DNA from: Chelatococcus sambhunathii
GTDB taxonomy: Bacteria > Pseudomonadota > Alphaproteobacteria > Rhizobiales > Methylopilaceae
Assembly: GCA_031316315.1 (NCBI GenBank)
Contig: JADBEO010000006.1
Span: 62,001 to 126,000, forward strand
DNA: 64,000 nucleotides
Direction: 5' to 3'
Both the position numbers and the translations under genes were made by a program. Positions within the stretch are counted from its first letter, which is position 1. Each line of letters opens with the position of its first letter. Below, in pieces: positions 1 to 56,551 of this stretch. The notes below the pieces were generated by a model. That model ran no database searches, was not told where the DNA came from, and worked only from the letters and a program-made list of their open reading frames with translations.

Positions 1-1
1 T

Positions 2-41992: not shown

Positions 41993-42379
41993 TCAGCCGC
42001 GGCGCCCGAGCGCGGTTCGGATCAGGCCGAGGCTCTTCTGGTAGAGCATCGCGGCCATCTGGTGGTCCATCTGGTTCTGGGCCGCCTTGGTCATCTGCTC
42101 TTCGAGCACGACAGTGTTGCCGTCCGGAGTGCGCTCGAAGTCGTCCTCCTTGCCCGGTCGGCCGGTCGGATCGACGGTCGCGAGCGACATGTGGCGCGCG
42201 TCGGTGCGCGCGGGGCCGATCGAAGGATTGTCGAAGTCTACGGCGGCCAGTTCATGCGCGCGGAAGTTCGGCGTCTGGGCGTTGGCGACGTTCTCCGCCA
42301 GGACCCCCTGGCGCGCCTCGTGCCAGCGCATCTTGGTCTTGAGCGCCGAAATCAGGGTCGGTTCGCCGATGCCGGTCAC
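41993..42379 (-). CDS. flgB: Flagellar basal-body rod protein FlgB
   Basis: 128-residue proximal rod subunit: LISALKTKMRWHEARQGVLAENVANAQTPNFRAHEL, a disordered middle, and EEQMTKAAQNQMDHQMAAMLYQKSLGLIRTALG. First gene of the minus-strand rod/export operon; the divergent control region with a CtrA box and a palindrome lies upstream. Confidence 0.95.
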   Translation of the reverse strand: MTGIGEPTLISALKTKMRWHEARQGVLAENVANAQTPNFRAHELAAVDFDNPSIGPARTDARHMSLATVDPTGRPGKEDDFERTPDGNTVVLEEQMTKAAQNQMDHQMAAMLYQKSLGLIRTALGRRG

Positions 42380-42434: not shown

Positions 42435-42449
42435 CGGCAAAATCTGCCG
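42435..42449. promoter_or_regulatory. FlbD/ftr-like palindrome A (flgB-fliO)
   Basis: CGGCA-aaatc-TGCCG, a perfect 5-bp inverted repeat with 5-nt AT-rich spacer. The same GGCA-N5-TGCC core recurs at 51231 and 56447, always upstream of flagellar genes. Ten bases separate it from the CtrA box at 42459. Confidence 0.55.
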
Positions 42450-42458
42450 CCTGCATGG

Positions 42459-42473
42459 TTAACGCGCCGTTAA
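42459..42473. promoter_or_regulatory. CtrA box between flgB and fliO
   Basis: TTAA-cgcgccg-TTAA, an exact match to the CtrA consensus, 80 bp upstream of flgB and 152 bp upstream of fliO. A further TTAAG half-site follows at 42479. Expected to control early (class II) flagellar genes. Confidence 0.7.
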
Positions 42474-42624
42474 GAACGTTAAGTTTCCATTCACCTTCCG
42501 CGAGACTCTGTCTATGACGAACGGGCCGCTCGGGAGACGTAGAGCGCTGCTTCTAACGACCGAGCCGCTCGCCGGCGGCTGTCCGGGGCCCGCCGCCGCG
42601 CTCCGAAGAATGAGGTGACGCTTC

Positions 42625-43734
42625 GTGTTCGACTCGATCCTCGGCGGAATTCCGACGCCGCTCAAATTCATCCTGGCGTTCGCGATCGTCATTCTGCTCA
42701 TCGTGATCGCCGCGTGGCTGATCCGGCGCTTCGGCGCGCAAAGCATCGGAGGGTCCACGGTCTCCGGGCGTTCGAGACAGCCCCGCCTCGGCGTGCTCGA
42801 CGTTCTGAACATCGACGGCCGGCGCCGCTTGGTGATCGTGCGCCGGGACAATGTCGAGCATCTGGTCATGATCGGCGGGCCGAACGACGTCGTGGTCGAA
42901 AGCGGCATCCTGCGCGTCCCGGCCGGCATGGCGCCGCAGCGGGAGGCGCCGGTGATCGAGCCTCCGGCGGCCCGGACGACGCCGCCGCAGCCGGTGCCGG
43001 CTCCCGCCGCGCCGCGCGTCGGCCAGCCTCGCGCGGCCGAGATCGTTTCCGTCGACCAGCCCTCGCGCGCGCCGGCGCCTCAGGTCCAGTCGGCTCCGCC
43101 GCTCGTCCCGGCCCAGCCGTCCGCGCCGGCGGCCCCCGCCCCGGCGCCGAGGCCCGCGCCTCCCGCGCAGCTTCGCCCGTCCCAGGCGCCGGCCGCCGCC
43201 CGGCCGGAGCCGGCGCCGCGCGCGCCCGCCGCCGAGCCGCGCGCTCCGGCGCCTGAGGTTCGCGTCGCCGCGCCCGAGCCGCGCGCGGCGACGGCCGCAG
43301 CCGCTGGTCCGATCATCGCCGGCCCGGCGTCGAGGTCGCCTCATCCCGCCGCCGCTGCCCGGCCGAACGAGCTCGCGGAACGGCTCGCCGCAGCTTTGAA
43401 GCGTCCTGTCGTCGCCGTGCCTCGGGCGCCGGCGCCCGTCCCGGCGAAACCCGAAGCGGAGAGCGGCGACCCTCTGCCGCGCGCGATGCCGCCGATGACG
43501 TCGGCCCCAACGACCAAGCCTGAGGCGCCGGAGGCGGACGCCTCCAAGACCGAAGCCGCGACGCAGGAGCCTAAGCTCGACGCCGCCCCTTCGGCCGGTC
43601 CGAAGCAGGACAAGTCGGCCGCGCCCGAAGTGCGCGCCGAGCGCCGCGACGAGTCGGAAGAGGACGACGACTTCTCGCTCGAGGCCGAGATGGCCAGCCT
43701 GCTCGGCCGGGACATCGGCAAGCCGAAATCCTGA
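42625..43734 (+). CDS. fliO: FliO-like flagellar biosynthesis protein with long Pro/Ala-rich tail
   Basis: 369 residues. One transmembrane helix (about 13-34, LKFILAFAIVILLIVIAAWLI) is followed by a short FliO-type domain (RLGVLDVLNIDGRRRLVIVRRDNVEHLVMIGGPNDVVVE, about 55-95), then about 270 residues of Pro/Ala/Glu-rich, probably disordered sequence, ending in an acidic helix (ESEEDDDFSLEAEMASLLGRDIG). FliO assists assembly of the FliP pore. The fliP gene follows 25 nt later. FliO is poorly conserved, so the call rests on topology, the (R)LVIVRRDNVEHLVMIGGP block and position. Confidence 0.78.
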   Translation: MFDSILGGIPTPLKFILAFAIVILLIVIAAWLIRRFGAQSIGGSTVSGRSRQPRLGVLDVLNIDGRRRLVIVRRDNVEHLVMIGGPNDVVVESGILRVPAGMAPQREAPVIEPPAARTTPPQPVPAPAAPRVGQPRAAEIVSVDQPSRAPAPQVQSAPPLVPAQPSAPAAPAPAPRPAPPAQLRPSQAPAAARPEPAPRAPAAEPRAPAPEVRVAAPEPRAATAAAAGPIIAGPASRSPHPAAAARPNELAERLAAALKRPVVAVPRAPAPVPAKPEAESGDPLPRAMPPMTSAPTTKPEAPEADASKTEAATQEPKLDAAPSAGPKQDKSAAPEVRAERRDESEEDDDFSLEAEMASLLGRDIGKPKS

Positions 43735-43759
43735 CGGCCCGTCCGGAAGGAGGCGGGCG

Positions 43760-44515
43760 TTGGATCAGGGCCGCTCCCGACCGATGATCCGGCGCGGGGG
43801 ACGATGGGCGCTGGTCGCGCTCTCGAGCCTGGCCGCCGCGCCGGCCATCGCCCAGACGGTGACCCTCGACCTCGGCCAGGGCGGCGTCAGCGAGCGCGCC
43901 CTGCAGATCGTCGCGCTCATCACCGTCCTCAGCCTCGCGCCGTCCATCCTCGTGATGGTCACGAGCTTCACGCGCATCGTCGTGGTGCTGTCGCTGCTCA
44001 GAACCGCGATCGGAACCCAGACCGCGCCGCCGAACGCCGTCGTCACCGCGCTCGCTCTGTTCCTGACGGCCTTCGTGATGGGGCCGACCTTCCAGACCGC
44101 CTACAATGACGGGATCGCGCCGCGCATCGCCGGCCAGATCGACGACGCGACCGCCTTCCAGCGCACGGCGGCGCCGTTTCGCACCTTCATGCTCGCCCAT
44201 GTGCGCGAGAAGGACCTCGCGCTGTTCCAGGATCTTTCGCGGGAACCGCGGCCCGAGACGCCCGATCAGATCTCGCTTAGGGTGCTGGTCCCGGCCTTCA
44301 TGATCTCGGAGCTGCGGCGCGCCTTCGAGATCGGCTTCCTGCTGTTCGTGCCGTTCCTCGTGATCGACCTGGTCGTCGCCTCGGTGCTGATGTCGATGGG
44401 CATGATGATGCTGCCGCCGGCCATCGTCTCGCTGCCGTTCAAGCTGATCTTCTTCGTGCTGGTCGACGGCTGGAGCCTGGTGGCGGGAAGCCTCGTCCAG
44501 AGTTATGGGACGTAG
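43760..44515 (+). CDS. fliP: Flagellar export-pore protein FliP
   Basis: 251 residues of the FliPQR core. A TTG start is chosen because AAGGAGG lies 7 nt upstream; an ATG eight codons later has no such site. A signal sequence (WALVALSSLAAAPAIA) is followed by the FliP signature: LAPSILVMVTSFTRIVVVLSLLRTAIGTQTAPPNAV, LALFLTAFVMGPTF, LVPAFMISELRRAFEIGFLLFVPFLVIDLVVASVLMSMGMMMLPP. Cotranscribed with fliO; convergent with the AMIN/TPR gene. Confidence 0.95.
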   Translation: MDQGRSRPMIRRGGRWALVALSSLAAAPAIAQTVTLDLGQGGVSERALQIVALITVLSLAPSILVMVTSFTRIVVVLSLLRTAIGTQTAPPNAVVTALALFLTAFVMGPTFQTAYNDGIAPRIAGQIDDATAFQRTAAPFRTFMLAHVREKDLALFQDLSREPRPETPDQISLRVLVPAFMISELRRAFEIGFLLFVPFLVIDLVVASVLMSMGMMMLPPAIVSLPFKLIFFVLVDGWSLVAGSLVQSYGT

Positions 44516-44547
44516 GAAGCTCGGGGTTCGCCGAAACGGGTGTCCCG

Positions 44548-47500
44548 TCAGGCCTTCGACGGCGACTTGTCGGCGGAAGGCTTCTCCGGGTTCGACGCCT
44601 GCCCCGGAACGGGATCGGAGGCGCCGCGCCGGTACTCGTCGAGGAAGGCCTGGAAGCTCGACGTCGCGGCGACCGATCGAGCGACCTCTCGGAAGGCGTC
44701 GCCGCGCGCCTCGACCGGCGCGGTGACGATCTCGAAAGACTTGGCCTCGGGGCTGTCGGCCATCTTCGCCGCGTATTTCTGGCGGATGCGGTCGACCGCG
44801 AGCCCGTCGCCGGCGAGCGCCGCGGCGATGGCGGCGCGCATGACGTTCGCGCGCTGCAAGGGGTCGAGCGGCTCGGGCCGCCGCCAGACGGAGCCGAGCG
44901 CCGCCTCCAGCGCCTCGCCGGCCTCCGGCCAGCGCCTCGCCGACCACAGGATGTCGGCCCGCAGCGCGCGTCCTTCGGCGCCCTCGAGTCCGTCCGCCAT
45001 TTCGAGAGCGAGATCGACGCGGCCAGTCTCCGCCAGGGCGCGCGCCTCGAGCCGGGTCCGGGTCTTGAGCAGGCCCGCGGGAAGGTCGGCCTGCCGCGTC
45101 CTGCGGAGCATCTCGACCGCCTTGGCGGGCTTGCCGTTCATGAGATCGATGAGAGCGGCCCGCGAGGCGACCTGCGCGCGCGCGGCGCCCGTCAGTCGGT
45201 TCTCGATCTGGTAGCCGAGCAGCTCCGCGGCCTGGTCCAGCAGATCGACCTCGACCAGCTTGTCGGCCAGGCGCCGCACCAGTTCGTCGCCGCGCTTGCC
45301 GCCCGGCAGCAGCTCCTTGAAGTCGTAGAACAGCGCGAGCGCGTCGAGCCTCGGCATCTTGTCGACGCCGCCCCCGAGGAACAGGTCGGTGAAGCGCTCC
45401 TGCATCCGGTCCTGCACGGCGCGGGTGTCGTCCGCGTCGGGGAAGGCTTCGACCGCGGTTCGCAGCGTCGAGAACGCATCGCGCCAGCGCCCGGCCGCGC
45501 CGTAGAGGTCGGTAAGGCGCGCGAGCGCCTCGGCCTCGATCCGGTCTCCGCGCCAGCCGGTCGTGAGGCGCTCCAGACGCGTGATGGCGTCGTTCGCCGA
45601 CACGGACTTCATCTTCCGTCCAAGCAAGATGGAGCGGAGCTCAGCCTCCGCCGCAGCCGCCGGCTCGCCCCGCCGCGCGACGGCCGCGAGGGCGCGATCC
45701 GCCTTGTCGAGATGCCCCATCCCTTCCTCGATCCGGGCGCGCAGGATCTCGCGCGCGCCCAGACCCTCGGTCGTCGGCAGGATCTCGAGGTCGCGATAGA
45801 GCGCTTCGGCCCTGGCGACGTCGCCGGCCTCCAACGCAAGGCGGACGCCGAGCGCCGTGAAGCGCGCCTTCAGCTCGGCCGGGAGCTGTCCGATGACGAC
45901 GCCGCCTTCCTTGAGCGCGTCGCGCGCCTGGTCGAGCCGGCCCGACAGCTCCTCCGCGGCGGCGCGCCAGAGGGCGGCCTCGGGCCGCATGCGCAGGCTC
46001 GGAAGCGACAGGATCGCAAGGGCGGCGTTGGGGCGGCCGAGCTCCACGGCGGCCGCGGCCCGGAGCAGGCCGATGCGCGGATCGCGTTCGGACAGCCCGG
46101 CGTCCTCGACGAGAGCGCCGAGAACCGCGGCCGAATCGGCGGCCCGGCCGCGAGCCTGGTAGAACTCGGCGAGCGCCAGGCGCGCCGCCGGCCGGTCCTG
46201 CGGCGTCGAGAGCGCCGCCGCGCGCATGAGCTCGTTCTCGCGTTCCGCGAACGGGACGGCGTTGGCCGCCGCCCAGCTCGCCGCGTCCATCACGAGATCG
46301 CCAACCTCTTCGGCCGGCCTTCCGGACTGGACCGCAAGCGAAGGCGACAGCGTCAGCCCGCCGGGGCGCTCGATGGAGATACGCTCGATCGAGGCGACCA
46401 CCGCGACGTCGTCGGAGTTGAGATTGAGCGCCAGCCCCTGCGCCGACGGCAGCGCCGTGAACTCGACGAACTGCCGCAGGGCCGGCAGGTGGCGCGCCGG
46501 CGCGCCGACGGTGACGACAGCGAGCCTGTCGCCGATTTCGGGGTCGGCGATCGATCGCACCGTCCCGAGGGCCGGAAGCTCGGCCTGGAGGGCGGGCTGG
46601 CCGCCGCGGTCCGCGGCGGGCGCGAACTCGATCGGTCCGCTGCGGGTCGTCACGTCGTCGCCGAGCGCGACGACCCAGGCGTCGCCCTCGGCGGATACCG
46701 AGACGAGCCGCGGCTCCGCCAGCCTTATCCGCGCCGCCCGGCCGCGCTCGATCTCGACCGGCTCGACGCCGAGGATCGCGCCGCCGGAGCTGGCCGCGAA
46801 GCCGTCGAGCTTCAGCGGCGCGGGATCGTCGAACACCACCCACAGCGTCTTCCCGCGTTCGAACACGGCCGCGGCCGTCGGCCGTGCGAAGGGGAACGTC
46901 AGTCGAAGCGACTGCCCGACGCGGCGGATCGACGGGGCGTCGGGACGGGCGGCGGCGAGCGGCGGGCGGTCCGGCGCGACAGCCGCCGGCTTTGCTGCGG
47001 GATCGGCGGTCGGCGTCGACGCCTTCGCCGCGACCGGCTCGGCCGGCGCGGGCGCCTTCGGCGCGGGATCGGGCGCCGAGACCTTCGCGCCATGCGCCCC
47101 CGCCGCCGCGGAAGCTGCGGGTGCCGGCTCGCCGTGCGCGGGGGCCGTCGCGCCGCGCTCCGGCTCGTGGCGGTCCGGGGCGGCCGCCGGCGCGGCGCCG
47201 TCCTCAGCGGCGGCCTGCTTCGGAGCGTCGTCGCGGTCGATGTCGAGGATGAAATCGCCGTCCTCGCGGAAGCCCCGCACGGCGCCCGTCCCGGGCGCTG
47301 GCACGGTGATCGACAGGCCCCTGTCGGTGCGCCGCGCCTCGATGCCGGCGAATTCCAGCGGCAGGCGAAGCTTGGCGGCGGCGAGATCGAACAGGTAGGG
47401 CGCGTCGATCTTCACCGCGACGGTCGGCCCCGAGCGCCGATAGTCGATGGGCGAGTCGGCGCCGAGACGGAAGATCAGGCGGCGGAACGTCGGGTGGGTC

Positions 47501-48009
47501 GCGCCCTCGATCGTGAGGACCCGCTGCGGGTCGGCCCTGAGGCGCGCCTCCTCGGCCTTGAGCGATCGCGCCTCGCGCGCCTCGCGGCTCAGCTGCTCGA
47601 TGACGTCCTTCGGGATCGGCGGCGGCAGGCCTTTCCAGTCGTTCGGCAGCAGATCGATGAAATAGCGGTCGCCGGCGGAGGTCGAGACGAGCCGAACGGC
47701 CCCGTTGAGCGCCAGGCGGATCGCGGAGCCGTCCGGGTCGCGACGGACCGCGCCGATCAGTCCGCCGAGGCCGCGTCCGAGCTCCTGGCTCTTGATCTCG
47801 ACGGGCTCGGAGAAGCTGATGACGAGAACGTTGTTGGCGAGCCGCGCCTGCGTCTCCGGCGGCTGGTCGAAGACGAGCTGGATGCGGGTGTAGCCCTCCG
47901 GCGCCGTCGCCGCCGTCACCGTCGCGGTCGCGGCGCGTGCGCCTGCGGCCGCGCCGAAGCTCAGCGCGCAGGCCAAGGCCGCAATGACCGTCCGCAATCG
48001 AAGGGCCAA
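44548..48009 (-). CDS. Large periplasmic protein with AMIN-like modules and TPR-like helical repeats in the motor operon
   Basis: 1153 residues. Signal peptide 1-26 (ending ARA). At least three AMIN-like beta modules are visible: about 30-125 (YTRIQLVFDQPPETQARLANNVLVISF ... DRYFIDLLP), 165-258 (PTFRRLIFRLGADSPIDYRRSG ... GDFILDID) and 368-470 (QSLRLTFPFARPTAAAVFERGKTLWVVFDDPAPL ... GDAWVVALG), the last two separated by a Pro/Ala linker. From about 600 to 1120 the protein is a helical repeat solenoid (RLALAEFYQARGRAADSAAVLGALVE, RWRDAFSTLRTAVEAFPD). AMIN domains target envelope proteins to peptidoglycan. The gene ends the fliL-fliM-DUF6468-motE unit, suggesting a role around the stator or motor. 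No named family is recognised; domain calls are by eye. Confidence 0.7.
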   Translation of the reverse strand: MALRLRTVIAALACALSFGAAAGARAATATVTAATAPEGYTRIQLVFDQPPETQARLANNVLVISFSEPVEIKSQELGRGLGGLIGAVRRDPDGSAIRLALNGAVRLVSTSAGDRYFIDLLPNDWKGLPPPIPKDVIEQLSREAREARSLKAEEARLRADPQRVLTIEGATHPTFRRLIFRLGADSPIDYRRSGPTVAVKIDAPYLFDLAAAKLRLPLEFAGIEARRTDRGLSITVPAPGTGAVRGFREDGDFILDIDRDDAPKQAAAEDGAAPAAAPDRHEPERGATAPAHGEPAPAASAAAGAHGAKVSAPDPAPKAPAPAEPVAAKASTPTADPAAKPAAVAPDRPPLAAARPDAPSIRRVGQSLRLTFPFARPTAAAVFERGKTLWVVFDDPAPLKLDGFAASSGGAILGVEPVEIERGRAARIRLAEPRLVSVSAEGDAWVVALGDDVTTRSGPIEFAPAADRGGQPALQAELPALGTVRSIADPEIGDRLAVVTVGAPARHLPALRQFVEFTALPSAQGLALNLNSDDVAVVASIERISIERPGGLTLSPSLAVQSGRPAEEVGDLVMDAASWAAANAVPFAERENELMRAAALSTPQDRPAARLALAEFYQARGRAADSAAVLGALVEDAGLSERDPRIGLLRAAAAVELGRPNAALAILSLPSLRMRPEAALWRAAAEELSGRLDQARDALKEGGVVIGQLPAELKARFTALGVRLALEAGDVARAEALYRDLEILPTTEGLGAREILRARIEEGMGHLDKADRALAAVARRGEPAAAAEAELRSILLGRKMKSVSANDAITRLERLTTGWRGDRIEAEALARLTDLYGAAGRWRDAFSTLRTAVEAFPDADDTRAVQDRMQERFTDLFLGGGVDKMPRLDALALFYDFKELLPGGKRGDELVRRLADKLVEVDLLDQAAELLGYQIENRLTGAARAQVASRAALIDLMNGKPAKAVEMLRRTRQADLPAGLLKTRTRLEARALAETGRVDLALEMADGLEGAEGRALRADILWSARRWPEAGEALEAALGSVWRRPEPLDPLQRANVMRAAIAAALAGDGLAVDRIRQKYAAKMADSPEAKSFEIVTAPVEARGDAFREVARSVAATSSFQAFLDEYRRGASDPVPGQASNPEKPSADKSPSKA

Positions 48010-48093
48010 CGCCGGCTCCCGTCGCAGCGCGGCGACGAAGCCGCGCGCCCCGAGTCTTACCCGGTCAGGGTTGGCAAGGCGTTACCGCGCCCC

Positions 48094-48861
48094 TCATCTC
48101 GGCGTCGGCTTGCCCTGGATCTTGGGCAGGTCGGCGGCGTCCAGGGCGTCGGCGACCTGGGGGGCGACCTCGCGCCGGGCGAGCGAAACGGTGAGCTTCT
48201 GCGCGGCGTCCGGCGGCATCAGTCCGAGGATGACTGAAAGCTGCCGCGGCTTCATGCGCGAGGCGACGTCGAGCAGGACTCCCGGATCGAGCTTCTCGAA
48301 GATCCGGGCCGCCTCCTTCGGCTTCATGTTCTCGTACATCGCGACCAGCTCCTTGAGCTTGCCGCTCTCCTCGTCGGCCCGCCGCTTGTCGGCCTCGGCG
48401 ATCGCCGATTCGAGCCGCTTCAGCTCGGCGATCCGCTCGTCCATCCGCTTTTCGGCCGCCTTGAGCAGTTGCTCGCGCTCGTTGAGCTCGGCGGCGCGGG
48501 CGTCGATCGCCTCCCGCCTCTTGGAGAGCGCCTCGATCAGCGCGCCCTGCGACGAGCTCTCGGACGCAAGCTGCCCGGACCTGTCGACCGGCGGATTTTC
48601 CTTGGGGCGCGAGGTCGGCGGCTGGCTCGACTCCGCCTTGCCGTGATCGTCGGGAACGGCGGGCGCCTCGTCCTTCGGCGGCGCGGGCTTGCCTTCCGGC
48701 TTTTCCGATGCGGGCTTCTCGGAAGCCGCGGCCGCGGCCGGCGTCGCGAACAGGTAGCTGGAATGCGTCGCAAACTCGATCGTCTTCAGCGCAAGCAGGG
48801 CGCTCGCGGCCAGGATGACGGTCGGCATGAGCCTCAGACGCGCCGGGGCCCTCGTGGTCAT
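48094..48861 (-). CDS. motE: MotE family protein (MotC chaperone-like)
   Basis: 255 residues: N-terminal transmembrane anchor (about 13-30, PTVILAASALLALKTIEFAT), a Pro/Lys-rich linker, a coiled coil (about 108-172, EALSKRREAIDARAAELNEREQLLKAAEKR), and a MgtE-N/FliG-like helical domain (YENMKPKEAARIFEKLDPGVLLDVASRMKPRQLSVILGLM). In Sinorhizobium MotE is a periplasmic chaperone for MotC. The start overlaps the stop of the DUF6468 gene (ATGA). Confidence 0.85.
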   Translation of the reverse strand: MTTRAPARLRLMPTVILAASALLALKTIEFATHSSYLFATPAAAAASEKPASEKPEGKPAPPKDEAPAVPDDHGKAESSQPPTSRPKENPPVDRSGQLASESSSQGALIEALSKRREAIDARAAELNEREQLLKAAEKRMDERIAELKRLESAIAEADKRRADEESGKLKELVAMYENMKPKEAARIFEKLDPGVLLDVASRMKPRQLSVILGLMPPDAAQKLTVSLARREVAPQVADALDAADLPKIQGKPTPR

Positions 48862-49397
48862 GCGGCGGAGCCCGCGCTTAGGGCGCGCATGCGGTTCGCG
48901 AAGGCCTCGGCCGCCGCGGCGGTCGCGGCCGACCGGCTGAGCGGCTCCGGCTCGACCGCGGCGAGCGCGGCCTTGCGTTCCGCTTCGCGGCGCGCCTCGA
49001 GACGGAGCTGTTCGCGTTCGGCCTCTATCCGCTCGATTTCCTCGCGGGAATCGAGCCGCTGGGCGTGGTCGCGCGCGGCCTTGGCGATCCGGGTGATGCG
49101 GTTGATGACCTCCTCGCCTTCGCCGAGCTGCCCCTTCATCTGCATGGTCAGCGCCTCGGCGCGGCCGAGCCGCTCCGCCAGCGTCTCCTCGCTCTGGGAC
49201 ACTGTCGCCCGCAGCGCGGCGATGGCGCGCTCGGCCGCGTGGGTCGCCGAGACGAGTTCGGTGATGGTGCCGCGCATCGAGGTCTCGTCGTTGCGCAGGC
49301 GCTTCAGCCGCCGATCGAGGATCGAGCAGTAGATGATGGTGGCCGCGAGCAGAACGGCGACGAGCGCCTCGATGGCGAAGCCGATGACGTTCTCCAT
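48858..49397 (-). CDS. DUF6468-type membrane coiled-coil protein of the fliM operon
   Basis: 179 residues: N-terminal transmembrane helix (about 6-26, GFAIEALVAVLLAATIIYCSILDRRLKRLR), then a long charged coiled coil (about 38-145: MRGTITELVSATHAAERAIAALRATV, EEVINRITRIAKAARDHAQ) and an Ala-rich end. This is the alphaproteobacterial family found between fliM and motE; function is unknown, though genomic position implies a motor or stator role. The start touches the fliM stop and its own stop overlaps motE, so the three are translationally coupled. Confidence 0.8.
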   Translation of the reverse strand: MENVIGFAIEALVAVLLAATIIYCSILDRRLKRLRNDETSMRGTITELVSATHAAERAIAALRATVSQSEETLAERLGRAEALTMQMKGQLGEGEEVINRITRIAKAARDHAQRLDSREEIERIEAEREQLRLEARREAERKAALAAVEPEPLSRSAATAAAAEAFANRMRALSAGSAA

Positions 49398-50563
49398 CAC
49401 GCCGTCTCCTTGCGGACCTGTCCCGCCGCCTCGAACGCGGCCAGCGTCGTGCGCGAGCGGCGCAGCGGCTTGGCCACCTGGATCGCGACATGCTCGCCCG
49501 AGCGGCCGATGCGGCCCTGCGTCAGGGGTTCGTCCCCGCACCGGATCTCCACCAGGGCGTCGGGCTTGAGGTCGAGCATCAGCGTGTCGCCGACGTCGAG
49601 GTCGAGGATGCGCCGGAGCGGCAGCTTCTTGTCGTAGAGCACCGCCTTGACCTCGGTCTTCGCGGACCAGATCTCGGTGGCGAGATGGCCTTCCCAGGTC
49701 GCGTCGCGACCGAACTTCTCGCCCATGAAGCCCTGCAGCAGGACGTCGCGGATCGGCTCGATGGTCGCATAGGGCAGCAGGATCTCGATCGAGCCGCCGC
49801 GCTCCTCCATGTCGACCCGCAGCCGCACCAGGATGGCGGCGTTGGCGGGCCGGGTGATGGCTGCGAACTTCGGGTTGGTCTCCAGCCGGTCGAACGAGAA
49901 GGAGACTGGGCTCACCGGGCGGAACGCGAGTTCGGCGTCCTCCAGCACGACCTCGATCATGCGCTGGACCAGGCTGGTCTCGATCGAGGTGTAGGGCCGG
50001 CCCTCGACCTTGAGCTTCGCCGTGGAGCGGCGCCCGCCGAGCAGCACGTCCACGATCGAATAGGCGAGCGGGCTGTCGACGGCGATCATGCCGAAGCCGT
50101 CCCACTGCTTGGCCTTGAAGACGGACAGGATCGCCGGCAGCGGGATCGAGTTCAGATAGTCGCCGAAGCGCACCGACTTGATGATGTCGAGCGAGACCTC
50201 GACGTTGTCGGAGGTGAAGTTGCGGAGCGAGGCCGTGAGCAGCCGGACCAGCCGGTCGAACACGATCTCGAGCATCGGCAGTCGCTCGTAGGAGACGAGC
50301 GCCGAATTGATGATCGCGCGGATACCGGACTGGTCGGAGAGGCCGAGCTCAGCCGGGTTGAAGCCGAGGAAGCTGTCGACCTCGTCCTGGTTCAGGACGC
50401 GGTCGGCGTTCTTGCGCTTCTCCTCGGTCTTGGCGATCTGCGTCTCGAGCTTCGACGCCCAGCTCCCGCCGTCCTCCGCGGCGGAGCCGACCTGCTCGGT
50501 CATCGCGGCTTCCCATTCGGCCGCGAGATCGTCGTCCATGTTTTCGTTGTCGCCGCCCGCCAC
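49397..50563 (-). CDS. fliM: Flagellar motor switch protein FliM
   Basis: C-ring protein that binds CheY-P and reverses or slows rotation. 388 residues from GTG 50563; an ATG nine codons later (50539) is an alternative. N-terminal region with VLNQDEVDSFLGF, the middle domain (ALVSYERLPMLEIVFDRLVRLLTASLRNFTS, GDYLNSIPLPAILSVFKAKQWDGFGMIAVDSPLAYSIVDVLLGG) and a C-terminal SpoA domain (LRRILDLDVGDTLMLDLKPDALVEIRCGDEPLTQGRIG). Between fliL and the DUF6468 gene. Confidence 0.95.
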   Translation of the reverse strand: MAGGDNENMDDDLAAEWEAAMTEQVGSAAEDGGSWASKLETQIAKTEEKRKNADRVLNQDEVDSFLGFNPAELGLSDQSGIRAIINSALVSYERLPMLEIVFDRLVRLLTASLRNFTSDNVEVSLDIIKSVRFGDYLNSIPLPAILSVFKAKQWDGFGMIAVDSPLAYSIVDVLLGGRRSTAKLKVEGRPYTSIETSLVQRMIEVVLEDAELAFRPVSPVSFSFDRLETNPKFAAITRPANAAILVRLRVDMEERGGSIEILLPYATIEPIRDVLLQGFMGEKFGRDATWEGHLATEIWSAKTEVKAVLYDKKLPLRRILDLDVGDTLMLDLKPDALVEIRCGDEPLTQGRIGRSGEHVAIQVAKPLRRSRTTLAAFEAAGQVRKETA

Positions 50564-50583
50564 CGAAGCGTCTCCCGACCGCG

Positions 50584-51126
50584 CTACTGGACCACCATGT
50601 CCTTGAAGAGCACCGCGTCGACCTTGGCCGGCGCAACGGCGACGTTCACCCGGCGCAGAAGCTCCTCCTTGAGCCGGTAGGCGCCCGAGGAGCCGCGGAT
50701 GTCGTCCGGCCGAAGCTCGCGCAGGTGGGTCTGGAAGCTGTCGAGCACGCGCGGCATCATCGGCTTGATGGCGTCGGCCATTTCGGCCTTATCGACCTCG
50801 AGCGCCACATTGAGTCGGACGTAGCGCTGCTTCTCCCGATCGACGGTCGCGAGATTGACGGTCATTTCCGGCAGATCGACATAGGCCTTGGCGCCCTTGC
50901 CGGCCGCGTCCTTGCCGTGGCCGTCCTTGCCGCTTTCGCCGTGGCCGCCCTTTTCCTCGCCGTGTTCGGCCGCGGCCTCGGCATGCTCGCCGCCCGACAG
51001 CGCGAAATAGCCGCCCGCGCCCCCAAGGATCGCGAGCGCCGCGGCGGCGCCGATGATGAGCAGCTTCTTCTTGGATTTCGGGGCCGCCTTCTTGGCAGCG
51101 CCCTCTTCCGTGTCCTGATCCGCCAT
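50584..51126 (-). CDS. fliL: Flagellar basal body-associated protein FliL
   Basis: 180 residues around the stator units. Single transmembrane helix (about 21-43, KLLIIGAAAALAILGGAGGYFAL) after a Lys-rich cytoplasmic tail; a His/Gly/Glu-rich linker (about 47-78, EHAEAAAEHGEEKGGHGESG) which could bind metal; and the periplasmic FliL domain (YVDLPEMTVNLATVDREKQRYVRLNVALEVD, LREELLRRVNVAV-like end). First gene of the minus-strand motor operon. Confidence 0.92.
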   Translation of the reverse strand: MADQDTEEGAAKKAAPKSKKKLLIIGAAAALAILGGAGGYFALSGGEHAEAAAEHGEEKGGHGESGKDGHGKDAAGKGAKAYVDLPEMTVNLATVDREKQRYVRLNVALEVDKAEMADAIKPMMPRVLDSFQTHLRELRPDDIRGSSGAYRLKEELLRRVNVAVAPAKVDAVLFKDMVVQ

Positions 51127-51230
51127 CTGGCTCGCCCCACGGCCGCTCGGCCGCGCTGTCCGTCACGCGCCGAACCCGTCGCCGGCGATGGTTAACGGAT
51201 AGGTCGGGAAGGTTAACGAACCCTTTCGCT

Positions 51231-51265
51231 GGGCAAATTCTGCCGGGCAAATTGCGCCTGCCCGG
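51231..51265. promoter_or_regulatory. FlbD/ftr-like palindromes B1 and B2 (flgF)
   Basis: B1 is GGGCA-aattc-TGCCG (51231-51245), B2 is CCGGGCA-N9-TGCCCGG (51243-51265); they overlap by three bases. The centre of B2 is 82 bp upstream of the -24 GG of the sigma-54 element, the same distance as palindrome C to the flgE element. This is the geometry expected of an enhancer for a sigma-54 activator such as FlbD. Confidence 0.55.
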
Positions 51266-51333
51266 CTGAAGCGCGGCGCCTCTTTCCTGCCGGGAGACGA
51301 CGGAAATCGCTCAAATCCGAGCGATTTCCCGAC

Positions 51334-51350
51334 TTGGCACGCCGCCTGCA
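51334..51350 (+). promoter_or_regulatory. Sigma-54 promoter of flgF
   Basis: TTGGCACGCCGCCTGCA matches the RpoN consensus YTGGCACG-N4-TTGCW at all but one position, with the required GG-N10-GC spacing (51336-51349). It lies 81 bp before the flgF GTG start. Confidence 0.75.
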
Positions 51351-51430
51351 ATTCGATCGCCGGATGCGGCCCGCCGTCGGGGAGGATGGCGGGGCGAGAT
51401 CCGGAAAAGATTTCAGGCCGGGAGCGTGTG

Positions 51431-52177
51431 GTGGAAAACGCCTCTCTGGTCGGGTTGTCGCGGCAGGTCGCCCTGCGGCGCGAACTCGACGTCATTGCGA
51501 ACAACGTCGCGAACATGAACACGTCCGGCTTCAAGGCGGAGCAGCTCGCCTTGGCCGAGCGTGTGATGCCGAAGGCGCGCGACGACCAGTTTCAGCGCCC
51601 GGACCGGACCTTGTCCTTCGTCGAGGACCTTTCGACCTGGCACGACCAGTCGCCAGGCGTCGTCCAGACGACCGGCGGCGCGAACGACTTCGCGATCGAC
51701 GGCGACGGCTTCTTCGTGGTCGAGACCCCGGCCGGCCCGCGCTACACGCGCAACGGCGCGTTCCAGATCAACGCCAGCGGCGATCTCGTGACGTCGGAAG
51801 GCGCGCGGGTGCTCTCGACCGCCGGCCCCGTGCAGTTCGCCCCGACGGAGACCGGCTTCACCGTCGCGGGCGACGGCACGATCACCACCAGCGAAGGCAT
51901 CCGCGGCCGCCTCAGGGTCGCGCGCTTCTCCAACATGCAGGACCTGACGAAGGAGGGCGGCAGCCTGTTCAGCTCGACGGCTATTCCGAACGAAACGGCC
52001 AGCATCCGCTCCCGCGTCGTGCAGGGCGCGATCGAGAAGTCCAACGTCAAGCCGATCTCGGAGATGAGCCGCCTGATCGAGGTGACGCGCGCCTACGAGA
52101 ACGTCACCGGCATGCTCTCGCGCCAGGACGAGATGCGCCGTTCCGCCATCGAGCGCCTCGCGGACGTGCCGGCATGA
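51431..52177 (+). CDS. flgF: Flagellar basal-body rod protein FlgF
   Basis: 248-residue proximal rod subunit. The start is a GTG at 51431 (VENASLVGLSRQVALRRELDV, aligning with known FlgF) with GGGAG 6 nt upstream; an ATG at 51386 would add 15 residues and lies closer to the promoter. N-terminal rod motif VIANNVANMNTSGFKAEQ, central FAIDGDGFFVVETPAGPRYTRNGAF, C-terminal MSRLIEVTRAYENVTGMLSRQDEM. First gene of flgF-flgG-flgA-flgH, expressed from a sigma-54 type promoter. Confidence 0.93.
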   Translation: MENASLVGLSRQVALRRELDVIANNVANMNTSGFKAEQLALAERVMPKARDDQFQRPDRTLSFVEDLSTWHDQSPGVVQTTGGANDFAIDGDGFFVVETPAGPRYTRNGAFQINASGDLVTSEGARVLSTAGPVQFAPTETGFTVAGDGTITTSEGIRGRLRVARFSNMQDLTKEGGSLFSSTAIPNETASIRSRVVQGAIEKSNVKPISEMSRLIEVTRAYENVTGMLSRQDEMRRSAIERLADVPA

Positions 52178-52207
52178 GCAAGAACCAGCGCGCCCAACGG
52201 GCCGACT

Positions 52208-52323
52208 GCGTGCTTCGAGACGCCCGCCTTCGGCAGGCTCCTCAGCATGAGGGACGGTTCTGCTTTGGCCTCCTCAACATTCCTCATGCTGAGGAGGCCC
52301 GTCAGGGCCGTCTCGAAGCACGC
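52208..52323. repeat. Large palindromic intergenic repeat between flgF and flgG
   Basis: Outer arms GCGTGCTTCGAGACG (52208-52222) and CGTCTCGAAGCACGC (52309-52323) are perfect inverted repeats; inner arms GGCTCCTCAGCATGAGG and CCTCATGCTGAGGAGGCC pair almost perfectly. The whole element can form a cruciform or a long mRNA hairpin. Elements with CTTCGAGACG and CTCAGCATGAGG arms are dispersed in many Hyphomicrobiales genomes. It interrupts an otherwise compact operon (181 nt between flgF and flgG). Confidence 0.8.
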
Positions 52324-52358
52324 AGGTCCTCTCCCCAACTCGTCAAGGGAGCCGCCTG

Positions 52359-53147
52359 ATGCGCGCCCTCTACACCGCCTCGACCGGCATGGCCGCGCAG
52401 GAGATGAACGTCGAGGTCATCTCGAACAACATCGCGAACATGCGGACCACCGGCTTTAAGCGCCAGCGGGCCGAGTTCCAGGACCTGCTCTACCAGCAGC
52501 TGCGGCGCGTCGGCGCCTCGAGCTCGGACGCCGGCACGGTGCTGCCGACCGGCGTCGACATCGGCTCGGGCGTCAAGCTGGTCGCGACGCCCCGGGTCAT
52601 GAGCCAGGGCACGGTCTTTCCGACGGAAAAGACCTATGACGTCGCGATCCGCGGCGAGGGCTACTTCAAGATCGAACTGCCGGACGGGACCGACGCCTAC
52701 ACCCGTGACGGCTCCTTCGAGATCGACCCGAACGGCCAGCTTGTCACCGCCGACGGCTACACGATCTCGCCCGGAATCACGGTCCCGAACAACGCGCTGT
52801 CCGTCACGATCTCCCCGGTCGGCGAAGTGCAGGCGACCATCGCCGGCCAGACGGCGCCCCAGAACCTCGGCCAGCTGCAGCTTGCGCGCTTCGTCAACAA
52901 GTCGGGGCTCGAAGCCAAGGGCGACAACATGTTCCTCGAGACCGAGGCAAGCGGGGCGCCGCTGGAGGACGTCCCCGGCGCCGAGGGCTTCGGCACGCTG
53001 CTGCAGGGCTATCTCGAGCAGGCCAACGTCAATGCGGTCACAGAAATCTCGGACCTGATCGCGGCGCAGCGCGCCTACGAGATGAATTCGAAGGTCGTCT
53101 CCTCCGCCGACCAGATGCTTCAGAACACCAGCCAGATGCTGCGGTGA
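52359..53147 (+). CDS. flgG: Flagellar distal rod protein FlgG
   Basis: 262 residues, the family length: MRALYTASTGMAAQEMNVEVISNNIANMRTTGFKRQRAEFQDLLYQ, the FlgG-type VGASSSDAGTVLPTGVDIGSGV, YFKIELPDGTDAYTRDGSFEID, and C-terminal GFGTLLQGYLEQANVNAVTEISDLIAAQRAYEMNSKVVSSADQML. Downstream of the palindromic repeat and 5 nt before flgA. Confidence 0.97.
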   Translation: MRALYTASTGMAAQEMNVEVISNNIANMRTTGFKRQRAEFQDLLYQQLRRVGASSSDAGTVLPTGVDIGSGVKLVATPRVMSQGTVFPTEKTYDVAIRGEGYFKIELPDGTDAYTRDGSFEIDPNGQLVTADGYTISPGITVPNNALSVTISPVGEVQATIAGQTAPQNLGQLQLARFVNKSGLEAKGDNMFLETEASGAPLEDVPGAEGFGTLLQGYLEQANVNAVTEISDLIAAQRAYEMNSKVVSSADQMLQNTSQMLR

Positions 53148-53152
53148 GGGCA

Positions 53153-54094
53153 ATGACGCGTCTTCTTCTCGCTCTCGCCGCCTCGATCGCCGCCTTCCCG
53201 GCGCTTGCCGGCCCGACCCTCAAGGACGAAGTCGTGGTCTCGAACGACGTCGTCACGGTCGGCGACCTGTTCGACCACGCCGAGGGCCTCGAGGGCATCG
53301 CCCTCTTCCGCGCTCCCGATCCGGGCCAGAGCGGCCCCCTTCCCGCCGCCGCGGCGCTTGCGGCGGCCCGCCGGGCCGGCGTCGCCGGCGCCGAGGCGGG
53401 AGACGTCCGGCAGGTCTTCGTGACGCGGCTCAGCCGCGAGATCAGCGCGGCCGACATCACGGGCTCGATCGTCGCGCGCGCCGCGACCGACTACGGCGTC
53501 GACGTCGACGCCGTCGACGTCAAACTCGACGGCGAGGTCGGGCCGGTCCACGTGCCGACAAGCCATACCGGGCCGCTTCAGGTGACCCGCTTCGTCGCCG
53601 ACCGGCAGACCGGCCGCTTCGAGGCGTCGCTCGCCGTCGCCGGAACGCCGCGCCGCGAGGAGCCCATCCGCGTGAGCGGGACTGCGGTCGAGACCGTGGA
53701 GGTCGCGACGCTGTCGCGGCCGCTCGACCGCGGCGACCTCGTCGCCGCCTCGGACGTCCGCTACGACCGCCGTCCCAAGTCCCAGGTGGGCGACGCTATG
53801 GCGCCCTCCGACGTGACCGGCCTCGCCGCGAAGCGTCCCATCCGCGAAGGACAGCCGCTGCGCGCGGGCGACCTCGCGCGGCCGCAGCATGTCGAGCGCG
53901 GCGGTTTCGTCACGCTGGTCTACGCGACGTCCGGCGTGTCGCTGTCGCTCAAGGCCAAGGCCCTCGCGTCGGGCGCGCAGGGCGACGTCGTCTCCGTCCA
54001 GAACATCCAGTCCAAGCGCGTGGTGAGCGGAGTGGTCACCGGACCGTCGGAGGTCACCGTGACCTCCGCGGTGACCACTCTCGCCCGCCGTTGA
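53153..54094 (+). CDS. flgA: Flagellar P-ring assembly chaperone FlgA
   Basis: 313 residues with a signal peptide (MTRLLLALAASIAAFPALA). Alphaproteobacterial long form: TLKDEVVVSNDVVTVGDLFDHAEGL, then the conserved SAF-type C-terminal region LSRPLDRGDLVAASDVRYDRRP, AAKRPIREGQPLRAGDLARPQHVERGGFVTLVYATSGVSLSLKAKAL. It guides FlgI polymerisation into the P-ring; flgI itself is not in the window. ATG 53153 has GAGGG upstream; an overlapping GTG at 53144 is possible. Confidence 0.93.
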   Translation: MTRLLLALAASIAAFPALAGPTLKDEVVVSNDVVTVGDLFDHAEGLEGIALFRAPDPGQSGPLPAAAALAAARRAGVAGAEAGDVRQVFVTRLSREISAADITGSIVARAATDYGVDVDAVDVKLDGEVGPVHVPTSHTGPLQVTRFVADRQTGRFEASLAVAGTPRREEPIRVSGTAVETVEVATLSRPLDRGDLVAASDVRYDRRPKSQVGDAMAPSDVTGLAAKRPIREGQPLRAGDLARPQHVERGGFVTLVYATSGVSLSLKAKALASGAQGDVVSVQNIQSKRVVSGVVTGPSEVTVTSAVTTLARR

Positions 54095-54105
54095 GGAGCG
54101 TCCCG

Positions 54106-54858
54106 ATGGTCATGCGTCACTCCGTCCGCCTCGGCGCGGTCGCCCTCGCCGCCTCGCTCCTCGCCGGCTGCGGCGCCGCCGACAGGCTCGCCAATATCGG
54201 CGCGCAGCCGGCGCTCTCGCCGATCGAGAACCCGACGGCCCAGCCCGGATACAAGCGCGTCTCCATGCCGATGCCGGAGGTCGCGCCGGTCTCCTACGCG
54301 CCGAACTCGCTGTGGCGCGGCGGGGCCAAGGGCTTCTTCAAGGATCCGCGCGCCAAGCAGGTCGGCGACCTGCTGACGGTCAAGGTCGCGATCACCGACA
54401 AGGCCGAAATCGAGAACAGCTCCGCCCGCTCGCGCACCAGCTCCGACACCTCGGGCGTGAACAATCTTTTGGGCTTCGAGACCAAGCTCGGGAAGGTGTT
54501 TCCGAGCGGGTTCGACGCCTCGAAGTTGGCCGACACCTCCTCCACCTCGGCCTATGAGGGCAGTGGCACGGTGGACAGGAAGGAGACCCTGACCACCAAC
54601 GTGGCCGCCGTCGTCACCCAGGTCCTGCCGAACGGCTCCCTGGTGATTGAAGGCAAGCAGGAGATCCGGGTCAATTTCGAGATCCGCGAGCTGATCGTCG
54701 CCGGCGTCGTCCGGACCGAGGACATCGACAGCGACAACACCATTCCGAGCGAGAAGATCGCGCAGGCCCGCATCGCCTATGGCGGACGCGGCCAGATCAC
54801 CGACGTCCAGCAGCCGCGCTACGGCCAGCAGGTGATGGACGTGCTGCTTCCGTTCTGA
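54106..54858 (+). CDS. flgH: Flagellar L-ring protein FlgH (lipoprotein)
   Basis: 250 residues from ATG 54106 (GAGGAG 7 nt upstream). Lipobox LLAGC places a lipid on the cysteine, giving outer-membrane anchoring. FlgH signatures: NSLWRGGAKGFFKDPRAKQVGDLLTVKVAITDKAEIENSS, YEGSGTVDRKETLTTNVAAVVTQVLPNGSLVIEGKQEIRVNFEIRELIVAGVVRTEDI, ending IAYGGRGQITDVQQPRYGQQVMDVLLPF. Last gene of the flgF unit; a strong hairpin follows. Confidence 0.96.
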   Translation: MVMRHSVRLGAVALAASLLAGCGAADRLANIGAQPALSPIENPTAQPGYKRVSMPMPEVAPVSYAPNSLWRGGAKGFFKDPRAKQVGDLLTVKVAITDKAEIENSSARSRTSSDTSGVNNLLGFETKLGKVFPSGFDASKLADTSSTSAYEGSGTVDRKETLTTNVAAVVTQVLPNGSLVIEGKQEIRVNFEIRELIVAGVVRTEDIDSDNTIPSEKIAQARIAYGGRGQITDVQQPRYGQQVMDVLLPF

Positions 54859-54946
54859 GGCTTTTCAGAGCTTCGCGGACGGGTCGCTCCCGATCCGCGG
54901 ACCTGTCCGGCCGGCGGCGTCCACCCGCCCTCGCCCGGACGCTTGA

Positions 54947-54974
54947 GCGGCCGCCGGCTCCCCCCGGCGGCCGC
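54947..54974. terminator. Hairpin between flgH and the sugar dehydrogenase gene
   Basis: GCGGCCGCCGG-ctcccc-CCGGCGGCCGC, a perfect 11-bp stem between two convergent genes. There is no T run, but location suggests a bidirectional terminator. Confidence 0.5.
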
Positions 54975-54993
54975 TGCCGCTTAAGACGGCTCG

Positions 54994-56178
54994 TCAGCTC
55001 CGCGCCTTCTCCGGCTTCAGCCTGAGCACCCTGCCCTCCTCGCTGTCGGTCAGCAGGTAGATGAGCCCGTCCGGTCCCTGCCTGACGTCGCGGATGCGCT
55101 CGCCCATGTCGTCGAGCAGGCGCTCCTCGTGGACGACCTTGGTCCCGTCGAGTTCGAGCCGGGCGAGCGTCGGGATGGCGAGGCCGCCGACGAAGGCCGA
55201 GCCCTTCCAGCCGGGATAGGCGTCGCCGGTGTAGAAGGCGAGGCCCGACGTGCCGATCGACGGCACCCAGTAATGGACCGGCTGCTCCATGCCCTTCTTG
55301 CTGGAAGGGCCGATGTCCTCGCCGGAATATTCCTTACCGTAAGTGATGATCGGCCAGCCGTAGTTCTTGCCGGCCTCCGGACGGTTGAGCTCGTCGCCGC
55401 CGCGCGGGCCGTGCTCGACGGTCCACAGCTGACCGTCGGCCGGATTGATCGCGGCACCCTGGATGTTGCGATGGCCGTAGGACCAGATCTCCGGCTTCGC
55501 GCCGTCCTTGGCGTCGAACGGGTTGCCGGCGGCGGGCGATCCGTCTCGCGTCAGCCGCACCACCTTGCCGAGCGTCTCGTCGAGCGCCTGCGCTTTGCCG
55601 CGAAACTCCTTGTCGGAGCGCTCGCCCGTCGTCACGAACACCATGCCGTCCGGCGCGAACACGATGCGCGATCCGAAGTGCTTGGTGGACTGATACTTCG
55701 GCGCCTGCCGCCAGATCACCGAGACGTCGTCGAGGCGCGGCGCGTTCCCGGAGAGCTTGCCGCGCGCCAGCGCCGTGCCGTTGACCCCGCCCTCGCCCGC
55801 CTCGGCGAAAGTGAAATAGACGTACTTGGTCTGCGCGAAGTCCGGGGCGACCGCGACGTCGAGCAGGCCGCCCTGCCCGCGCGCGTCGACCTTCGGAAGA
55901 CCGGTCACCGGCGCCGAGAGCTTGCCGTCGGGCAGGACGATGCGCATGCGCCCCGCCTTCTCGGTCACCAGCATCCGCCCGTCCGGAAGGAAGGCGAGTC
56001 CCCAGGGGCGCTCGAGGCCTTCCGCGACGGTCTCGACGGAAAACGCCTGCTTCTCCGACGTCTCGACCGAAGAGGCCTTCTTGGCCTGCGCGAGAGCGAG
56101 GCCTCCGCCGGCCGCGGCGAGCGCGACGACCGCGGCGAGACGGCCAACGGACGCGCGGAAGCTCGGCGTAGTCATCAT
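54994..56178 (-). CDS. PQQ-dependent aldose sugar dehydrogenase-like protein (exported)
   Basis: 394 residues from ATG 56178 (GGAGA upstream), with a signal peptide (about 1-31, ending LALAQA). Six-bladed propeller of the soluble glucose/aldose dehydrogenase family: VAEGLERPWGLAFLPDGRMLVTEKAGR, GQGGLLDVAVAPDF, HFGSRIVFAPDGMVFVTTGERSD, catalytic-loop WSYGHRNIQGAAINPADGQLWTVEHGPRGGDELN, and YGWPIITYGKEYSG. Family members oxidise sugars in the periplasm with PQQ and calcium. It sits alone, minus strand, between two plus-strand flagellar units. Confidence 0.87.
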   Translation of the reverse strand: MMTTPSFRASVGRLAAVVALAAAGGGLALAQAKKASSVETSEKQAFSVETVAEGLERPWGLAFLPDGRMLVTEKAGRMRIVLPDGKLSAPVTGLPKVDARGQGGLLDVAVAPDFAQTKYVYFTFAEAGEGGVNGTALARGKLSGNAPRLDDVSVIWRQAPKYQSTKHFGSRIVFAPDGMVFVTTGERSDKEFRGKAQALDETLGKVVRLTRDGSPAAGNPFDAKDGAKPEIWSYGHRNIQGAAINPADGQLWTVEHGPRGGDELNRPEAGKNYGWPIITYGKEYSGEDIGPSSKKGMEQPVHYWVPSIGTSGLAFYTGDAYPGWKGSAFVGGLAIPTLARLELDGTKVVHEERLLDDMGERIRDVRQGPDGLIYLLTDSEEGRVLRLKPEKARS

Positions 56179-56446
56179 CTGCGGATCTCCGTGCGCTCGG
56201 GGGCGGACGGGAGATGGCGCGCCGTCCGTCCGATTCAAATCACGTGCGATCACGAGCCCTTCAAAAGGATCGGCGAAGTCCTTCGCTCGCGCGAGCGAGA
56301 CGATCAGCGAGCGGGTTGCGAGCAGCGTGACCGGCCTCTATCCGCAGATGAAACGCAGTCCAGCGGCGCGCCCTGCTCAGGCGGGGGAGCCGCGATGTCG
56401 CGACGTTGTGGCGTCCTCCAGATGACGCCGGATCGGCGCCCGCGCG

Positions 56447-56463
56447 CCGGCAAAAGCTGCCGG
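56447..56463. promoter_or_regulatory. FlbD/ftr-like palindrome C (flgE)
   Basis: CCGGCA-aaagc-TGCCGG, a perfect 6-bp inverted repeat with 5-nt spacer, centred 82 bp upstream of the -24 GG of the flgE sigma-54 element. Strongest copy of the recurring flagellar palindrome. Confidence 0.6.
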
Positions 56464-56534
56464 GCGGCAATCCCTTCAGTCTTTATCGAGTTCGGTAAGC
56501 AATCTTAAGTCGCTGATATTGCTTGGTTCCGGCA

Positions 56535-56551
56535 TTGGTCCAGGCTTTGCG
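56535..56551 (+). promoter_or_regulatory. Sigma-54 promoter of flgE
   Basis: TTGGTCCAGGCTTTGCG keeps the -24 TTGG and -12 TTTGC with GG-N10-GC spacing (56537-56550), 65 bp before the flgE start. Less perfect than the flgF element in the -24 flank. Confidence 0.6.

Follow-up and report, generated by a model that had tools for sequence, protein, structure and literature searches.

The circuit described for Caulobacter crescentus is the closest known counterpart of the system considered here, and its site ftr4 is centred near position -8 of fliF. Flagellar circuits of other rhizobia are VisNR-Rem and FtcR. The present analysis concerns a 64,000-nucleotide stretch of the Chelatococcus sambhunathii genome (the window; bases 62001-126000 of the 130,587-base contig C67), in which a palindrome, GGCA-N5-TGCC, recurs in a flagellar gene cluster. 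The whole genome comprises 4.10 megabases and is 99% complete. In Caulobacter, according to the available parts of the sources, CtrA activates early flagellar genes; FlbD, itself under the control of FliX, is a repressor of fliF and an activator of sigma-54 genes (PMC3096577, PMC3930126). CtrA-activated promoters have the CtrA box near -35; the flgB promoter flgBp is reported to be CtrA-repressed, and most rod genes to depend on RpoN and FlbD (available part of PMC6180460). The accessible text of PMC12421884 names Fumeaux et al. as the source for FlbD binding sites in promoters of Caulobacter. FlbD-FliX of Bradyrhizobium diazoefficiens is the subject of Dardis et al. 2021, known by its title from the reference list of PMC12918737.

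The palindromes are probably FlbD operators in a relay of the Caulobacter type, by which early genes would be switched off and hook and rod genes switched on (probability of about 0.85, judged from sequence). The evidence concerning the palindrome is its position and conservation, not its number in the window.

Palindromes in the window and in related genomes

Exactly three copies of GGCA-N5-TGCC are present in the window (cores 42436-42448, 51232-51244 and 56449-56461), all where the original prediction had placed them. The GG-N10-GC elements proposed at flgF and flgE were found as well, and the CtrA box adjoining the first palindrome is real by sequence. The elements are as follows.

42436..42448, minus strand: site A, GGCAGATTTTGCC in the flgB direction; proposed FlbD repressor operator, starting 25 base pairs (bp) after the CtrA box start
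42459..42473, minus strand: predicted CtrA box, TTAACGCGCCGTTAA, reading as TTAACGGCGCGTTAA in the flgB direction; common to the divergent fliO
51232..51244, plus strand: site B, GGCAAATTCTGCC; proposed FlbD enhancer site, 98 bp to the -24 GG of flgF
51246..51258, plus strand: degenerate FlbD-like second site, GGCA-N5-CGCC, GGCAAATTGCGCC; centre 84 bp to the -24 GG
51335..51350, plus strand: flgF sigma-54 element, TGGCACGCCGCCTGCA, GG at 51336; 1 mismatch to TGGCAC-N5-TTGCW
56449..56461, plus strand: site C, GGCAAAAGCTGCC, centre 56455; proposed FlbD enhancer site, 82 bp to the -24 GG of flgE
56536..56551, plus strand: flgE sigma-54 element, TGGTCCAGGCTTTGCG, GG at 56537; 3 mismatches to TGGCAC-N5-TTGCW

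Conservation was assessed in 61 genomes: the own genome, 12 others of the genus, 5 of the family and 43 of the order. For each gene 30 loci were retrieved out of a larger number of genomes with a match; for flgE 27 of them were scanned, G003, G056 and G016 being excluded since their matches began further into the protein than residue 1. Six loci with very low orientation scores, mostly near a contig end, were scored as misses (fliF in G031 and G023; flgB in G010, G011 and G041; fliX in G043). The exact palindrome stands upstream of flgF in 24/30, flgE in 20/27, fliF in 22/30, flgB in 24/30, flhA in 25/30 and fliX in 25/30 loci. Together these are 149 palindromes in 177 upstream regions of six flagellar genes, versus a mean of 2.6 and a maximum of 8 in mononucleotide shuffles. 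The spacer of 5 occurs 20 to 29 times per gene, and any other spacer between 0 and 15 at most four times. C is preferred before the palindrome and G after it, and the core is A/T-rich.

The control set consisted of six flagellated relatives lacking FlbD (24 regions) and the second flagellar sets of G014, G017 and G051 (10 regions). The palindrome was found in none of these 34 upstream regions of flgF, flgE, fliF and flhA, and a one-mismatch version in four. The palindrome is concentrated at flagellar promoters; relatives keep it, and the FlbD-less flagellar systems examined lack it.

These counts bear on the possibility that the palindromes arose by chance or are terminators or other hairpins. 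The window by itself would allow it: three copies are not significant by count (shuffle mean 1.07; 11 of 100 shuffles reach three), so the window count is no evidence by itself. The excess over shuffles in the upstream regions, the nearly invariant spacer length, the fixed registers to CtrA boxes described below and the lack of palindromes in FlbD-less systems speak against chance as a general explanation and make this account extremely improbable.

The genome holds 50 copies of GGCA-N5-TGCC (139 of the pattern read backwards), which were placed relative to reading frames predicted by a custom script. Thirty-nine lie within reading frames and 11 are intergenic, seven of the latter at flagellar promoters:

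C67, 42670: fliK
C67, 43230: fliF
C67, 53208: flhA
C67, 104436: flgB/fliO (site A)
C67, 113232: fliL/flgF (site B)
C67, 118449: flgE (site C)
C62, 5093: flgI/fliX

The fliF copy was scored as intergenic because it lies in the longest frame but ahead of the conserved FliF start at about 43282. For intergenic sites, then, the palindrome is not equally common outside flagellar promoters, the outcome that could have undone the prediction, though most copies are within frames. The other four intergenic copies (L004, L006, L032 and L042) have neighbours that appear non-flagellar by eye. One of them, L004:1501-1513 (G000:C3:80457), reads GGCATATTTTGCC between genes, is flanked by long palindromic stretches (CGCCCGGCATATTTTGCCGGGCG) and lies apart from any recognised flagellar gene; it could be a terminator or a further FlbD target.

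Two promoter designs

The promoters carrying the palindrome fall into two designs. A sigma-54 element with at most 2 mismatches occurs within 300 bp upstream of flgF in 26/30 and of flgE in 25/27 loci, mostly 81-105 bp beyond the palindrome. The same search gave 1/30 for fliF, 0/30 for flgB, 0/30 for flhA and 1/30 for fliX. A CtrA box with at most 1 mismatch is present at fliF in 27/30, flgB in 27/30, flhA in 23/30 and fliX in 28/30. At the first three of these genes the palindrome in most cases starts exactly 25 bp after the start of the CtrA box (17 pairs at fliF, 15 at flgB, 22 at flhA). In 80 named flbD loci, several of which end before fliF, the offset of 25 was counted in 72 pairs, versus 3 for the next offset; 55 of the 80 loci have it, always on the flbD strand. 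At fliX the palindrome precedes the CtrA box by 17-20 bp (24 pairs), and in 25/30 fliX loci a sigma-54-like element (at most 2 mismatches) is found on the other strand 55-130 bp away, facing flgI in this genome. The predicted division of labour, repression from site A and activation from sites B and C, agrees with the geometry, which is repressor-like at flgB and enhancer-like at B and C; the fixed 82 bp that accompanied it does not hold.

The two distances of 82 bp are correct as originally defined, from the centre of the N9 palindrome (51254) and that of site C, but no fixed distance is kept across genes or relatives. Within the genus, the distance from palindrome centre to -24 GG is 81-82 bp at flgE and 97-99 plus 83-85 bp at flgF. 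At fliK it is 71-72 or 82-83 bp, as measured in 11 genus loci around fliF; among 12 genus genomes, flgI has 93-97 bp in 10, 102 bp in 1 and none in G011. A universal enhancer distance of 82 bp was therefore rejected. The N9 palindrome at flgF (51243-51265) was also rejected as a unit, a spacer of 9 occurring twice in 30 flgF upstream regions; what is conserved instead is the degenerate N5 site, which follows perfect site B in all 12 scanned genomes of the genus. On the fliK side a perfect sigma-54 element, TGGCACGGCGGTTGCA, lies 83 bp from the palindrome centre. For 17 lineages the flgE distances agree with a period of 10.6 bp (resultant 0.78, p 0.0008); the test used hand-transcribed distances, a single one for each lineage, and the whole genus counted once. 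Helical phasing is only a hint, as flgF at 98 bp and flgI at 96 bp are out of phase with flgE.

Across the class, the strict composite TTAA-N7-TTWA-N10-GGCA-N5-TGCC was found in 10/385 genomes (11 matches; 1 match for the reversed control). All ten encode FlbD over the cut-off, versus a class background of 107/385. In G064, G123, G199 and G337 the composite lies 3.7-3.8 kilobases (kb) upstream of flbD, where fliF starts, and in G069 and G202 elsewhere. Forty FlbD genomes outside the order were hand-picked, mostly from the top of the class FlbD list (L423 and L448 too short for the whole zone). Their fliF zone, which includes coding DNA and so gives noisier spacer counts, has a perfect palindrome in 24/40; spacer 5 accounts for 25 sites and the next spacers for 15 and 11. 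For perfect palindromes, 10 pairs show an offset to the CtrA box of -18 or -19, and 4 pairs an offset of 25. The 25-bp design is typical of this order and not of the class, because -18/-19 outnumbers 25 at fliF in other orders. In fliF zones such as those of L431, L435 and L443-L446, the palindrome takes either of two places: it follows the start of the CtrA box by 24-25 bp, or it precedes the box by 18-19 bp.

FlbD could also bind the early promoters without repressing them, being neutral there or helping CtrA, or the palindrome could be kept there chiefly for its A/T core, as part of the -10 element. A fixed 25-bp register is also expected if the core is a -10 element. Such an element, however, needs no GGCA/TGCC palindrome, and the identical palindrome stands at sigma-54 enhancers; FlbD-less regions, those of fliF and flhA included, are devoid of it, and FlbD of Caulobacter represses fliF in the available parts of the sources cited above. 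Binding without repression is accordingly considered unlikely, and FlbD as repressor of the early promoters is preferred.

Regulators encoded in the genome

The regulators of the proposed relay are FlbD, CtrA and RpoN, with FliX as a presumed partner. Some 13.5 kb ahead of the window lies the gene for an FlbD orthologue, a sigma-54 activator of 452 residues that matches NF050807 with 807.1 bits (cut-off 750). The search for a flagellar activator of the FlbD/NtrC type thus excluded the absence of FlbD, on which the prediction could have foundered. The order on one strand is fliF, fliG (by Pfam), a fliH-like gene (149 versus a cut-off of 201) and flbD. A search with the N-terminal 118 residues of FlbD gave at least 508 matches; within the best 80, the named ones that come nearest are from an uncultured Methylopila (98%) and from Hansschlegelia quercus (92%). 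The organism is accordingly related to these Hyphomicrobiales. FliX is encoded on contig C62, adjoining flgI (PF10768, 108.1 versus 25), with flbT and flaF nearby. RpoN is represented by a single PF04552 match (233.5 versus 22.8). The genes for CtrA and ChpT lie at the left end of the window:

1..616, plus strand: ctrA, starting 82 bases before the window (NF045991, 418 versus 350)
8054-8731: chpT (NF046018, 299.7 versus 240)

Among the 61 genomes, FlbD was found in 41 at an expectation value (E) below 1e-170, the next best activator matches being near 1e-80. FliX occurs in 42 and both proteins together in 40; G024 has FlbD without FliX, and G006 and the 67%-complete G043 have FliX without FlbD. 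G006, of the same genus, has a FliX-like frame (C4:232352-232717, E 4.6e-8) and no match for FlgF, FlgE, FliF, FlhA or FlbD.

The main binder of the palindrome could be another regulator, for example another sigma-54 activator, as PF00158 (sigma-54 activator) is matched nine times in the genome, strongly in seven cases. FlbD-less relatives, which are without the palindrome, have the other activators too, and the strict composite is confined to genomes with FlbD (10/10). A different main binder is for these reasons regarded as very unlikely, and FlbD is retained as the proposed one.

Proposed relay

In the proposed relay, CtrA would drive the early operons fliF...flbD, flgB...flhB and flhA. Transcription would start about 40 bp after the start of the CtrA box, and the palindrome would then cover about -15 to -3; FlbD bound there should therefore exclude RNA polymerase at fliF, where the geometry agrees with such repression, and the same may hold at flgB and flhA. 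FlbD, a product of the early operons, would bind the palindromes that follow the CtrA box start by 25 bp and overlie the presumed -10, and would shut these promoters off, its own operon included. From palindromes that precede sigma-54 elements by about 70-105 bp it would activate flgF, flgE, fliK and flgI. FliX could tie FlbD activity to assembly, as in Caulobacter. The parts that we infer are FlbD binding, repression and activation, the -10 position, the operon structure and control by FliX.

Several observations weigh against this relay, besides the window count and the many palindromes within reading frames. The perfect palindrome is absent at 6/30 flgF and 7/27 flgE loci, and genomes of one genus are non-independent. 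The sigma-54 element beyond site C is weak by itself, with its 3 mismatches, and that of flgI has 2. CtrA boxes also occur at flgF (13/30) and flgE (6/27). At flgB other box offsets are common too: 45 (10 pairs, from an additional box lying 20 bp farther upstream), -23 (7 pairs, the arrangement being mirrored towards the divergent gene) and 24 (3 pairs). To these are added the prevailing -18/-19 offset at fliF outside the order, and the score of FliX, which stays under all five NCBIfam FliX cut-offs (best 96.2 versus 196).

A more specific model has chances only slightly better than even. CtrA and FlbD sites in this order would be fused into one 38-bp relay operator (TTAA-N7-TTWA-N10-GGCA-N5-TGCC) with the -10 in the FlbD half, through which a first-wave product switches off fliF, flgB and flhA. 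The sign at flgB would be changed relative to Caulobacter (CtrA on, FlbD off), flagellins of the genus would have moved from FlbD/sigma-54 to CtrA, and a palindrome 17-20 bp before the box would mark fliX here and fliF in other orders. The 38-bp composite could serve as a sequence signature separating early promoters (CtrA on, FlbD off) from late ones (sigma-54, FlbD on).

Flagellar genes around the sites

The genes adjoining the sites, and the first flagellin gene, are listed below.

41993..42379, minus strand: flgB; best NCBIfam FlgB match 117.6 bits, below the cut-off of 142, and no Pfam match
42625..43734, plus strand: fliO (PF04347, 25.9 versus 22)
43760-44515, plus strand: fliP, after fliO (PF00813, 270.6 versus 26.9)
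50584..51126, minus strand: fliL, divergent from flgF (PF03748, 81.2 versus 24.6)
51386..52177, plus strand: flgF, conserved part from about 51431 (TIGR02490, 193.2 versus 178.5)
56616..57977, plus strand: flgE (PF07559, 34.3 versus 22.7); NCBIfam FlgE equivalogs below cut-off, best 312.6 versus 365
62093..63232, plus strand: flagellin gene; preceded at 88 bp by a CtrA-like box, with no palindrome and no sigma-54 element

The flgB gene heads a leftward run, flgB-flgC-fliE-fliQ-fliR-flhB, which reaches 38858; FlhB matches TIGR00328 (385 versus a cut-off of 349), and the names flgC, fliE, fliQ and fliR are given by resemblance only. The CtrA-plus-palindrome design at flgB is perhaps explained by its place as first gene of a run that extends through export genes to flhB.

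Three further genes in the cluster were recorded. Between fliP and fliM lies a 1153-residue protein (44548-48009) with matches only of sub-threshold, repeat type (TPR_19, YbgF). A sugar-dehydrogenase-like protein, judged by eye, is encoded on the opposite strand before flgE (54994-56253), and an anthrone-oxygenase-domain protein (PF08592) at 61466-61939; both are non-flagellar in appearance.

Three flagellin genes stand in a row (62093-63232, then 63468 onward to C67 127972), the second and third products having 91% and 53% protein identity to the first. Flagellins were found in 5 of 11 stretches, the own contig and 4 of 10 fetched genus stretches (10 genes). None of the 10 genus genes has a perfect palindrome or a sigma-54 element within 2 mismatches; a palindrome with one mismatch precedes one of them. 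All ten carry a CtrA-like box between -76 and -89. Their upstream sequences suggest that the flagellins are outside the proposed FlbD circuit.

Comparison with known systems

The type of circuit is already known. Possibly new are the 25-bp composite, the occurrence of this composite at flgB and flhA, and the position of the flagellins outside the circuit. A fixed CtrA-FlbD spacing was found in none of the titles or abstract openings listed from open-licence literature, subscription papers being outside this scope. From the three palindromes a wiring diagram open to experimental test can be drawn for a large order whose FlbD control has received little attention in the searchable literature.

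Bradyrhizobium diazoefficiens, compared by the title of the FlbD-FliX paper only, belongs to the same order and has the same two regulators. The original prediction held that rhizobial circuits do not use this design, which was not borne out, given FlbD in 41 of the 61 related genomes and the FlbD-FliX paper as known by title. Rhizobia with VisNR-Rem or FtcR are of the same order too; the six flagellated FlbD-less relatives, whatever their circuit, are without the palindrome in their 24 regions of flgF, flgE, fliF and flhA.

As far as the available parts of the Caulobacter sources allow, the likeness to the FlbD/ftr circuit of C. crescentus consists in the following: FlbD, FliX, CtrA and RpoN are all encoded here, flbD follows fliF and fliG, sites stand at fliF and at sigma-54 rod and hook genes (a likeness by gene position), and one protein is proposed for both repression and activation. 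Two differences are seen within the same limits. The flgB gene has a CtrA box (27/30) and the palindrome here, with a sigma-54 element in 0/30, whereas Caulobacter flgBp is reported to be CtrA-repressed and most rod genes there to be RpoN/FlbD-dependent; and the flagellins have neither a sigma-54 element nor a perfect palindrome, whereas those of Caulobacter are RpoN-dependent. A rewiring of flgB and the flagellins relative to Caulobacter is thus predicted.

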